Part shown: one piece after another, positions 2,283 through 36,979 of the stretch | Layout: each line of letters opens with the position of its first letter | Numbering within the stretch: the first letter of the stretch is position 1 | Source: Gammaproteobacteria bacterium | GTDB taxonomy: Bacteria; Pseudomonadota; Gammaproteobacteria; Eutrophobiales; Eutrophobiaceae | Assembly (NCBI GenBank): GCA_018676275.1 | Contig: JABHFC010000098.1 | Span: 1 to 40,161 of the forward strand | Reading direction: 5' to 3' | Length of the DNA: 40,161 bases | The notes under the pieces: model-generated | What the model was told of the DNA's origin: nothing | What the model saw: only the letters and a program-made list of their open reading frames with translations | Database searches by the model: none | Made by a program: the position numbers and the translations under genes

Positions 2283-3196
2283 GGCTGCACCATTACCTCA
2301 TCATCTAGTTGAGATAGCTGTTCTTCATTATTAACGGACATGACCACTTCTTCTTCAGCCTCTGTTTCATCATCCATGTCTTCTGGTGGAATATAAGGAT
2401 GATTTTGATAAAGCCATTCTGCTGTGAATATTTCCGCTGGCACATAGTCATGAGAAAAAAGTCTACGTGTAACTTTAAGCAATGACTGATGTTGCTCCTT
2501 GATATCCTCTATCAAGATCATGCCCGACCGCCACATATCTCCATCCACCGCTCTGATATCGTGATGACTTTGACGCTTGTGTACCCGACCATGACTATCA
2601 TAGTGCTCAGTCTGACTAATAAAAAAGTTGTCCTGGCGCACAAAGTGACGTCGTAGAGGTTTAGTTAAATTTACATCTTCGTTCAAACCATGCACATCAA
2701 TAGTAAAATACTGCATATTCCTGATTGTTCTGTTTTGTCGTCTTGTATATTGATAATCAGACAATTTTTCTCCAATAATATTTTCGACAGAAAAGTCAGT
2801 CCCCAGGAAATTTCCGTCACTGCTTTCACCTTTACTTTCGATAAGTTGCTCGGCGAACGCTGGCAAATATATTGACTTGGTCATAACTCCCAATGGGTCC
2901 CGTGTAGCCAATACAGCTACACCCCTTATTTCATGCGGAAAATCAAACACCAGCATGAATTTGGCCGTTCCATCTTCTTCCACTCTTGAATAACGATGTG
3001 CTTTTCGAGTATCTCGTTTACCATTGCGATCACTCATTACCATTGACTGCTCTTCGTAAACGTATGGGTATTGCTGGTGACGATTGTAGACCTCTTCCAT
3101 TATTTCCCGACCATTCAATTCCATTGACGACTCTGCATAGGCTAGCGAAGAAATTGCCGTCACTAAGAATAGAGGAATATGGAAAAATAGTTTCAT
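2279..3196 (-). CDS. LolA-like outer membrane lipoprotein-sorting family protein
   Basis: Protein from MKLFFHIPLFLVTAISSLAYAESS (signal peptide). LolA-like features such as VFDFPHEIRGVAVL and the position next to an MMPL transporter. The ORF track's longer start (3280) overlaps the upstream gene; 3196 is more likely. Confidence 0.75.
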   Translation of the reverse strand: MKLFFHIPLFLVTAISSLAYAESSMELNGREIMEEVYNRHQQYPYVYEEQSMVMSDRNGKRDTRKAHRYSRVEEDGTAKFMLVFDFPHEIRGVAVLATRDPLGVMTKSIYLPAFAEQLIESKGESSDGNFLGTDFSVENIIGEKLSDYQYTRRQNRTIRNMQYFTIDVHGLNEDVNLTKPLRRHFVRQDNFFISQTEHYDSHGRVHKRQSHHDIRAVDGDMWRSGMILIEDIKEQHQSLLKVTRRLFSHDYVPAEIFTAEWLYQNHPYIPPEDMDDETEAEEEVVMSVNNEEQLSQLDDEVMVQP

Positions 3197-3200
3197 TAGT

Positions 3201-3830
3201 CTATTGCTCTCCCTCCAGCGCAAGGATGCTGGAAGATATCTGATCACAAAGCCCGGCAAAAAGATCCTGCATGTCAGCAACTATTTGATCGTAGTCGCCA
3301 TCGTCAATATCGGAGTCACTTTGTAACGATGCATGGTACATACCCAGTTCTTCTTCGTCGGCATTACTCAGTTGCCATCGTGCTGAAAGCTGAACTCTAC
3401 CATCGTCATCTAGTTCGAATTTACCCATATGCACCTGAACCCGATAGTCCGGTAGGGTCGCAGAGCGATTCAATGGTGAGCCAATATCAATCGTGGATAA
3501 CCTGATCGCCAGATTAACAGCCAGAGTTCGCAAAAGATTTTTGCGCAGGTTACCACCCCACTGATTGCGTTCAGAAAAATGCAGACGATTATCGCCATTA
3601 CGCGTGACTATCTGGAAGCGTTCCAGGTACCTTGGTATATGCAGGTCAATGAGTTCAATTGCCAACTGGTTTTCTGTATCAATCTCGGGAGCATTCGCTT
3701 CAACGGCATCAATAAGATAATAATTCACGCCATTCTTTGATCCGCTGCCAAAGCAACCGGTCAATAATGCACATACCGTAATCAACAATAAAACCGGCAA
3801 TAAAGAAATTGATTTGTGATTATTCATCAT
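3201..3830 (-). CDS. pqiC: PqiC-like ABC-type transport auxiliary lipoprotein
   Basis: Lipobox LLTGC near the N terminus; 209 aa; directly follows PqiB with a TAATG stop/start overlap. Confidence 0.8.
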   Translation of the reverse strand: MMNNHKSISLLPVLLLITVCALLTGCFGSGSKNGVNYYLIDAVEANAPEIDTENQLAIELIDLHIPRYLERFQIVTRNGDNRLHFSERNQWGGNLRKNLLRTLAVNLAIRLSTIDIGSPLNRSATLPDYRVQVHMGKFELDDDGRVQLSARWQLSNADEEELGMYHASLQSDSDIDDGDYDQIVADMQDLFAGLCDQISSSILALEGEQ

Positions 3831-34989: not shown

Positions 34990-35232
34990 TTATAAAGCCT
35001 TATGGGAACCGTCACACTGCGGTTGATTTGCTGTCTTTTTACACCCACATAGATAGGCGCTTCCGGTTTTATCGGCAGTATAAGATAGCGGCACAAAACT
35101 TGTACCCTGATGAGAACCATCACAAAAAGGTTGTTTGCTGCTACGACCACAAGTACACCAATGGTAAGTTTTACCTTCTACCACTTCCACTTGATAAGGT
35201 GCTTTTTGCGCAACAATTGCTTCCTCACTCAT
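34990..35232 (-). CDS. Dual CDGSH iron-sulfur domain protein
   Basis: Two motifs: CTCGRSSKQPFCDGSH and CGCKKTANQPQCDGSH. Confidence 0.95.
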   Translation of the reverse strand: MSEEAIVAQKAPYQVEVVEGKTYHWCTCGRSSKQPFCDGSHQGTSFVPLSYTADKTGSAYLCGCKKTANQPQCDGSHKAL

Positions 35233-35337: not shown

Positions 35338-35411
35338 TGGAGCGGGTGATGGGAATCGAACCCACATTCTTAGCTTGGGAAGCTAATGTTCTGCCATTGA
35401 ACTACACCCGC
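35338..35411 (-). tRNA. tRNA-Gly (anticodon CCC), CCA encoded
   Basis: Reverse complement GCGGGTGTAGTTCAATGGCAGAACATTAGCTTCCCAAGCTAATGTTC... with acceptor GCGGGTG/CACCCGC, anticodon stem TTAGC/GCTAA and loop TTCCCAA, T-loop GGTTCGATTCC-type, and genomic TCCA at the 3' end. Confidence 0.95.
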
Positions 35412-35609: not shown

Positions 35610-35666
35610 ATGAAAAGCACACAAGCCTCAAAAGCCCTGGTTCTGCAATGGATGGCAAACGTATGA
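35610..35666 (+). CDS. Possible 18-aa leader peptide MKSTQASKALVLQWMANV
   Basis: AAGGG upstream of ATG at 35610; stop TGA overlaps the in-frame ATG (35663) of the receiver gene as ATGA. Too short for coding statistics. Confidence 0.3.
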   Translation: MKSTQASKALVLQWMANV

Positions 35667-36052
35667 CGGGGAATTCACCTACTATTGTTGTAGTAGATGA
35701 CAGTCCTACTGTTAAGGCCCTGTTTGAGCGCGGCATTATTGACTGCCAGATCGAATTAAAAGTATTTAGATCTGCTGACAATGCCTGGACTTATCTTGAA
35801 GCTATAAGCCCAGCCTTGTTATTCCTTAACATAAAAATGCCCGGTAAGGATGGACTGACTTTTCTTAAGGAATTGAGACATTTACCGCTTCACAAAGAAA
35901 CATCTGTTGTTATGATAAGCTCAAAGGATTACGCTCAAGATCGCTCGGTGGCAGAAAAGCTAGGTGCGTTAGAGTTTATTACCAAGCCAATGCCGATACA
36001 GGTGATTACAGATGTCATACACAAATATTTACAACCTACTAAGACAACATAG
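35648..36052 (+). CDS. Stand-alone receiver-domain protein with Asn at the phosphoacceptor position
   Basis: IVVVDDSPTVKALF (acidic pair), ALLFLNIKMPGKDG (Asn for Asp), VVMISSKD, FITKPMP (conserved Lys). The start may be 35648 or 35663. Confidence 0.9.
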   Translation: MDGKRMTGNSPTIVVVDDSPTVKALFERGIIDCQIELKVFRSADNAWTYLEAISPALLFLNIKMPGKDGLTFLKELRHLPLHKETSVVMISSKDYAQDRSVAEKLGALEFITKPMPIQVITDVIHKYLQPTKTT

Positions 36053-36064
36053 CGAATTTTCCCT

Positions 36065-36979
36065 ATGAGTGATGCATATCTCCGTTTTTGGGGTGTGCGT
36101 GGTTCATATTCCGCTCCTTTCGAATCACATCTTGGTGTAGGTGGTAACACCTCTTGCGTTGAAGTCCGGGTTGATGACCAGATAGTTATCTGTGATGCAG
36201 GGACCGGCATCATTCCATTAGGAAATGAATTGATGGCGCAAAGTAAGATCCGCAACTTACTTGTTATCCTGACTCATTATCATTGGGATCATATTTGTGG
36301 TTTACCATTTTTCGTGCCCGCTTTTGTTCCTGACTGGAATATAGATTTTTTTGGTCCTGGTCAATGCGATGATGAAATCAAGGAACATGTCTCCGCACAA
36401 ATGCAGGCACCTTATTTTCCTGTAGGTACTGAAACCTGGCTAGCGAACGTAAATTACCTGAAACCAACTAAAAATCAGGAAATAGCCCAGGGACCGATTT
36501 CCTTTGAATATCACAACGTTCATCACCCTGGCACTACCTACGGTTATCGAATTAAGGCCATGGGTAAATCAATTCTTTATATTTCCGATAATGAATGTTC
36601 GTACCTGGGTAAATCTATTGATCGAAAGTCTGATGAATTGACAGAGGAAGAGAAGCAGCTATATGAAGAAATGAAAAAGGAAGAACATTTGGCGGAAATT
36701 GAAATGGTAAAAGATGCAGACATACTAATTCATGACGCTCAATATACGCCGGAAGATTATGAGAAAAAACGGGGATGGGGTCATTCCTGTTACATTGATA
36801 CTGTAAATATTGCTATTGAAGCGGGAGTTAAAGAACTTTACCTTTATCATCACGATCCAAACTATGATGATGATGCAATGGAAAAAATTCACCAACATTC
36901 ATTGAGCATTATCGAAGAAAAAAATTCCTCATTAAAATGTTTCATAGCCCGAGAAGGCCTGATAGTAGATCTCTCCTGA
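36065..36979 (+). CDS. MBL-fold metallo-hydrolase
   Basis: HYHWDH metal-binding motif, plus further His/Asp ligands (HNVHHPG, YISDNE, HDAQYTPEDY, GHSCY, YHHDP). Confidence 0.92.
   Translation: MSDAYLRFWGVRGSYSAPFESHLGVGGNTSCVEVRVDDQIVICDAGTGIIPLGNELMAQSKIRNLLVILTHYHWDHICGLPFFVPAFVPDWNIDFFGPGQCDDEIKEHVSAQMQAPYFPVGTETWLANVNYLKPTKNQEIAQGPISFEYHNVHHPGTTYGYRIKAMGKSILYISDNECSYLGKSIDRKSDELTEEEKQLYEEMKKEEHLAEIEMVKDADILIHDAQYTPEDYEKKRGWGHSCYIDTVNIAIEAGVKELYLYHHDPNYDDDAMEKIHQHSLSIIEEKNSSLKCFIAREGLIVDLS

Follow-up and report, generated by a model that had tools for sequence, protein, structure and literature searches.

Organization of the locus

The window (the whole 40,161-nucleotide stretch of gammaproteobacterial DNA analyzed, contig JABHFC010000098.1) carries adjacent genes encoding a CheY-like receiver and a hydrolase of the metallo-β-lactamase (MBL) fold (Table 1). 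The PF00072 score of the former exceeds the cut-off of 30.2 bits, and the protein is recognized as a receiver. Its translation start is more likely Met6 (position 35663) than the first codon of the open reading frame, because homologs align from Met6. The receiver stop codon (TAG, 36050-36052) is followed by 12 nucleotides and then by the in-frame ATG of the MBL gene (position 36065). This spacing agrees with an initial annotation of the locus, which also correctly reported that Asn, encoded by AAC, occupies the position of the phosphoacceptor Asp and that the acidic pair (D17 and D18), the conserved Ser (S91, MISS), and the conserved Lys (K113, FITKP) are retained. Likewise, the histidine kinase profile HATPase_c had no match anywhere on the contig, as expected from the claim that no such kinase is encoded nearby.

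Table 1. Features of the receiver-hydrolase locus and of the preceding region
Feature	Position	Strand	Basis
80-aa protein with two CDGSH-like motifs (CxCGxSxxxPxCDGSH)	34990-35232	-	
tRNA-Gly (ccc)	35338-35411	-	
CheY-like stand-alone receiver, 134 aa	35648-36052	+	Pfam Response_reg, 69.7 bits
Acidic pair D17 D18, retained (VVDDS)	35696-35701	+	Sequence, ortholog alignment
Phosphoacceptor position Asn61 (AAC) in LFLNIKMPGKDG	35828-35830	+	Sequence
S91-S92-K93-D94-Y95-A-Q97-D98-R99, β4-α4 loop and start of helix 4	35918-35944	+	Ortholog conservation; helix 96-104 in model
MBL-fold hydrolase, 304 aa, same frame as receiver	36065-36979	+	Pfam PF12706/PF00753; Foldseek YhfI, RNase Z, PhnP
Metal-binding motif H71-Y-H73-W-D75-H76	36275-36292	+	H71, H73, D75, H76 invariant in 71/71 orthologs and 47 distant homologs
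His262, motif-V metal ligand	36848-36850	+	Alignment with RNase Z H269

The source genome (3.6 Mb, 451 contigs) contains 41 Response_reg matches. The phosphosite is Asp in 40 of them, which argues that Asn61, the sole Asn, did not arise by chance. An artifact of this particular genome was ruled out, as Asn also occurs in a genome of the same genus and at 20 distinct loci. Upstream of the pair, the product of the CDGSH-like gene is probably an iron-sulfur protein, and the tRNA gene lies between this gene and the receiver gene.

Co-occurrence of the two genes and variation of the phosphosite

Orthologs of the MBL were detected in 29 of 369 gammaproteobacterial genomes and those of the receiver in the identical 29 genomes; neither was found alone. 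In the order of the source genome, represented by a single family in the set, 39 of 53 genomes contained the MBL ortholog, and all 14 family genomes without it lacked a receiver ortholog (best score of 71 bits versus ~205 to 214 bits for true orthologs). Both genes were missing from all seven genomes of one genus of the family, designated g15. The receiver gene was located directly upstream of the MBL gene at 70 of 71 distinct ortholog loci, with spacings ranging from overlaps of up to 8 nucleotides to ~140 nucleotides (ten loci overlap by 4 nucleotides), and none of the 71 retained the MBL in the absence of the receiver. The receiver and the MBL form a strict two-gene module. The pair was separated only in a Parabeggiatoa metagenome-assembled genome (L053), where the receiver is 1.6 kb upstream and an additional MBL-fold gene (2716-3762) intervenes (region L053:2055-4906). 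Beyond the pair, the neighbors are housekeeping genes in a conserved order, which we take by eye to be priA, SPOR, argS, thiG, trmB, yrfG-like, and cysQ. These neighbors were rejected as functional partners, since they are shared by synteny and offered no lead to a function.

Distant MBL homologs (33-40% identity) were found in many phyla. Classified by script, 19 of 63 were fused to a receiver, 7 were adjacent to one, and 37 were stand-alone. Thus, receiver association recurs well outside the source family, and the proposal that receiver and hydrolase belong together is upheld by perfect co-occurrence, near-universal adjacency, and fusions in distant relatives. The receiver is N-terminal in fusions from Verrucomicrobiota, Elusimicrobia, and Methylomirabilota and C-terminal in those from Acidobacteriota and Rokuibacteriota. 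In some distant MBLs, the receiver or pseudo-receiver is C-terminal and precedes either GAF or cNMP_binding plus GGDEF. The latter MBL-receiver-cNMP_binding-GGDEF architecture was seen at L101 and L113 (Chloroflexi and Rokuibacteriota). An MBL with a degenerate receiver and a GAF-like C terminus was seen at L102, L104, L109, L111, and L143, with a Pfam GAF match at L102 and L104. Degenerate receivers among the distant homologs were those of L058, L102, L104, L111, and L143. Like response regulators with enzymatic output, the module links a receiver to an enzyme, here by strict gene pairing and in distant relatives also by fusion.

The phosphosite of 70 ortholog receivers was Asp in 42, Asn in 20, and Ser in 8, which rules out Asn as a conserved hallmark. 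Asn cannot be taken as a fixed feature of the system, and the initial interpretation needs amending in this respect: orthologs in other genera of the family, and most of those outside it, have Asp or Ser. At least six state changes were needed on the MBL tree, and likewise on a receiver-plus-MBL tree built without the active-site columns. In approximately unbiased (AU) tests, a single clade was rejected for Asn (p 2e-60) and for Asp (p 5e-6) but not for Ser (p 0.58); a single ancestral loss was accordingly ruled out for the Asn type but not for the Ser type. One Asn clade, that of genus g17 (genomes of 1.0-1.5 Mb), branches from within an Asp clade. Given this distribution of Asp and Ser among the orthologs, the system was probably phosphorylatable ancestrally and lost Asp repeatedly, the prevalence of Asp and the distant homologs pointing to Asp as the ancestral state.

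The two Asp-less types differ in the rest of the active site. D18 is missing from every Ser-type ortholog, and the metal site of these receivers is thus dismantled. D18 is retained in 18 of the 20 Asn-type receivers, in which the metal site could still work. This retention has to be weighed together with the report that Asn accounts for 16% and Ser for 15% of Asp substitutions and that Asn may deamidate to Asp, a reversion reported for a receiver (PMC4395418). The module could on these grounds be a conventional switch still, if Asn61 undergoes deamidation to Asp in vivo or if phosphorylation takes place at a different residue. However, Ser-type receivers of the same family cannot deamidate back and have lost D18 as well. 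Moreover, 12 of the 20 Asn types, including the receiver of the window, have Lys at the second position after Asn; in Asp types, this position is occupied by Ile, Leu, or Val and never by Lys. The residue following Asn61 is Ile, which makes deamidation slow. We consider a conventional switch improbable in the source lineage.

Asp-less receivers are under purifying selection, as estimated by the Nei-Gojobori method: pairs of Asn-type and Ser-type receivers had dN values of 0.06-0.16 for dS values of 0.45-1.8 where estimable (dS being near saturation), similar to Asp pairs. In the Asp, Asn, and Ser types alike, K113 does not vary, and the patch S92-K93-D94-Y95-x-Q97-D98-R99 hardly varies. These observations leave very little room for the receiver being a decaying remnant in Asp-less lineages, in which the MBL would act alone and co-occurrence would reflect nothing but operon inheritance. 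The slightly higher receiver/MBL divergence ratio of the Asn (1.23) and Ser (1.25) types relative to the Asp type (1.12) goes in the direction of decay, but dN is far below dS, the patch and K113 are conserved, and close relatives with a disrupted receiver and an intact MBL were not found, any more than loci with the MBL alone. We therefore regard decay as a marginal explanation. The S92-R99 patch is close to the usual α4-β5-α5 output face, which makes it a good candidate docking surface for the MBL. The initial annotation had proposed a possibly ligand-gated adaptor controlling the hydrolase; conservation of the receiver in the Asn and Ser lineages fits an Asp-independent adaptor or subunit role, whereas nothing was found in support of ligand gating.

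Structure models were generated with AlphaFold2 for an in-frame two-domain protein built by reading the receiver stop codon as Gln. The joined pair of the window was modeled with a pLDDT of 89 and a pTM of 0.70, the relative orientation of the domains not being fixed; by our own estimate, this pTM is about the value expected for two independently placed domains. The window-pair model was therefore discarded as uninformative about the interface. The model of a natural fusion (L062) reached a pTM of 0.83 (no inter-domain error reported), which suggests a more defined domain arrangement in that protein.

The hydrolase and its candidate substrates

The hydrolase matched Pfam Lactamase_B_2 (PF12706) with 49.8 bits. 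Residues H71, H73, D75, H76, H154, D175, D224, W238, and H240 are invariant in 71/71 orthologs, the first six of them being metal ligands. The MBL shares a PF12706 domain with dinuclear metal ligands with the atypical class-II phosphodiesterases (PDEs). The further ligand H262 is Ser solely in the reduced-genome, Asn-type g17 clade (L037, L038, L046, L054, and L159, from genus g17 and near relatives with genomes of 1.0-1.5 Mb), in which the neighboring His263 is retained. Because of this substitution, the enzyme of that clade may be altered. Foldseek returned YhfI (6kns and 1zkp), RNase Z, and PhnP as top matches, as well as Apyc1 when the natural fusion model was used, and the nearest folds were phosphoesterases with the exception of one arylsulfatase. 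The fold neighbors YhfI, RNase Z, and PhnP fit the phosphodiester substrate anticipated in the initial annotation; a cyclic nucleotide as that substrate is still hypothetical.

Among NCBIfam models, the best similarity was to RNase Z (TIGR02651), with 74 bits, and the region of H240 and H262 aligns with H247 and H269 of RNase Z. An RNase Z-like RNA-processing enzyme with a receiver adaptor might be envisioned on this basis. Yet the score is far under the RNase Z cut-off of 293 bits. The tRNA-binding flexible arm of RNase Z presumably sits between the motif III His and the motif IV Asp; only 21 residues separate H154 from D175 in the MBL, leaving no room for a counterpart of this arm. A helical insert longer than the equivalent stretch of RNase Z is present between D175 and D219. 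A role in RNA processing appears unlikely to us.

A second possibility, which is a specific version of the subunit model set out below, is that the MBL is a cyclic nucleotide (cNMP) PDE whose receiver subunit adjusts the level of cAMP, or of a different cNMP, synthesized by class III cyclases. Two PF12706 proteins, Rv1339 and the Corynebacterium CpdA, are cAMP phosphodiesterases, Rv1339 having been modeled on YhfI (PMC9293780). The fold similarity to YhfI and Apyc1, the distant MBL-receiver-cNMP_binding-GGDEF proteins, and a weak similarity to NF041851, the cyclic nucleotide-degrading PDE family, point the same way, although the latter score is 43.3 bits against a cut-off of 400. The genomic context provides further indications. 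Class III cyclases and GGDEF proteins were each present in every one of the 14 carriers examined; the two reduced-genome carriers among them have one of each. Among four module-less g15 genomes, two had a cyclase and one a GGDEF protein. Of the 29 module carriers, 22 encode the AC-FHA cyclase, compared with 58 of the remaining 340 genomes of the class; counted by family, it occurs in 11 of the 13 families with the module and in 33 of the other 169 (overlaps tallied by hand). Against this, the cyclase is encoded elsewhere in the genome, and its association with the module is confounded by phylogeny and vanishes inside the source family once g15 is left out. The AC-FHA cyclase was for this reason rejected as a partner in spite of the strong association at the class level. 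A cyclic-nucleotide substrate is plausible on circumstantial support, and we judge the receiver-tuned cNMP PDE to be a serious candidate that falls short of being probable.

Two observations concern the cyclase itself. The core cyclase is an AC-FHA protein, and its conserved class III cyclase-FHA gene precedes a phosphatase gene whose product looks PP2C-like by eye. This arrangement occurs at L216, L217, and L218 and persists in the reduced genomes of the family as well. All seven g15 genomes (G016, G027, G033, and G403-G406) lack both the module and the AC-FHA cyclase, and GGDEF proteins are few or absent in the four examined, a pattern suggestive of a joint loss of nucleotide signaling in this genus.

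A proposed receiver subunit without phosphorylation, and comparison with known systems

The reading that we favor, as reasonably probable, is that the receiver, once a phospho-switch and here locked or rewired, serves a YhfI/RNase Z-like phosphodiesterase as a dedicated and obligate partner or subunit. The pair would act as one regulatory unit in which the receiver binds the MBL, a putative dinuclear-metal phosphodiesterase of the YhfI, atypical class-II PDE, or RNase Z type, and sets its activity. The ancestral receiver would have been an ordinary Asp-phosphorylated switch fed by a distant kinase or a small phosphodonor, which we propose because the pair is not accompanied by a kinase gene. 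In the source genus, and independently in several others, Asp would then have been replaced by Asn or Ser, with loss of phosphorylation. Purifying selection would have kept the receiver because the enzyme continues to depend on this subunit. In the source lineage, the activity would be either constant or controlled through expression, through the binding of partners, or by a different modification. Several points count against the subunit model. The model of the joined window pair does not define how the two domains are oriented. The 37 distant homologs that have no receiver next door indicate that the MBL fold does not need one everywhere, and deamidation of Asn (PMC4395418) would keep a phosphorylatable fraction. 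The fuller proposal of an obligate receiver-phosphodiesterase complex, in which a phospho-switch was made a fixed subunit several times independently and which possibly degrades cAMP and is coupled to an FHA cyclase, is speculative, and we offer it tentatively.

Pseudo-receivers make up an estimated ~6% of bacterial receivers, and the mechanisms of their activation or inactivation have been described as a mystery (2025 review, PMC12632262). If the proposal is true, the closely related receivers with Asp, Asn, or Ser, all paired with one type of enzyme, would make up a natural series on how pseudo-receivers act without phosphorylation, and comparing them would reveal directly how a receiver serves its target in that state. 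The module also points to an uncharacterized family of putative receiver-linked MBL phosphodiesterases in several phyla. No study of the present pair was found in the open-access papers searched, an absence that does not prove novelty, and the word "Lactamase" does not appear in PMC12632262 or PMC4395418.

RitR (Asn53), FrzS, and CmrT (PMC4395418 and PMC12632262) likewise have a PF00072 fold lacking the phosphoacceptor Asp, RitR sharing the replacement by Asn. Known pseudo-receivers are, as here, mostly encoded by orphan genes without a kinase. However, they are mostly DNA-binding or motility proteins, whereas the present receiver is stand-alone and paired one-to-one with an enzyme, and its orthologs switch among Asp, Asn, and Ser within one group. 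The MBL shares its fold and metal ligands with YhfI and the atypical class-II PDEs (Rv1339 and CpdA), 6kns and 1zkp being the closest solved structures, but it is only 15-20% identical to these proteins and differs from them by an N-terminal FWGVRGS segment, the helical insert, a C-terminal HHDP motif, and a dedicated receiver. With RNase Z/ElaC, it shares the dinuclear site and the aligned H240 and H262 region but has no tRNA-binding arm and scores far below the family cut-offs. Finally, as in CheB and PleD, a receiver is linked to an enzyme; unlike in these proteins, the output is an MBL hydrolase, which in this lineage is a separate polypeptide, and the receiver of this lineage lacks the Asp.
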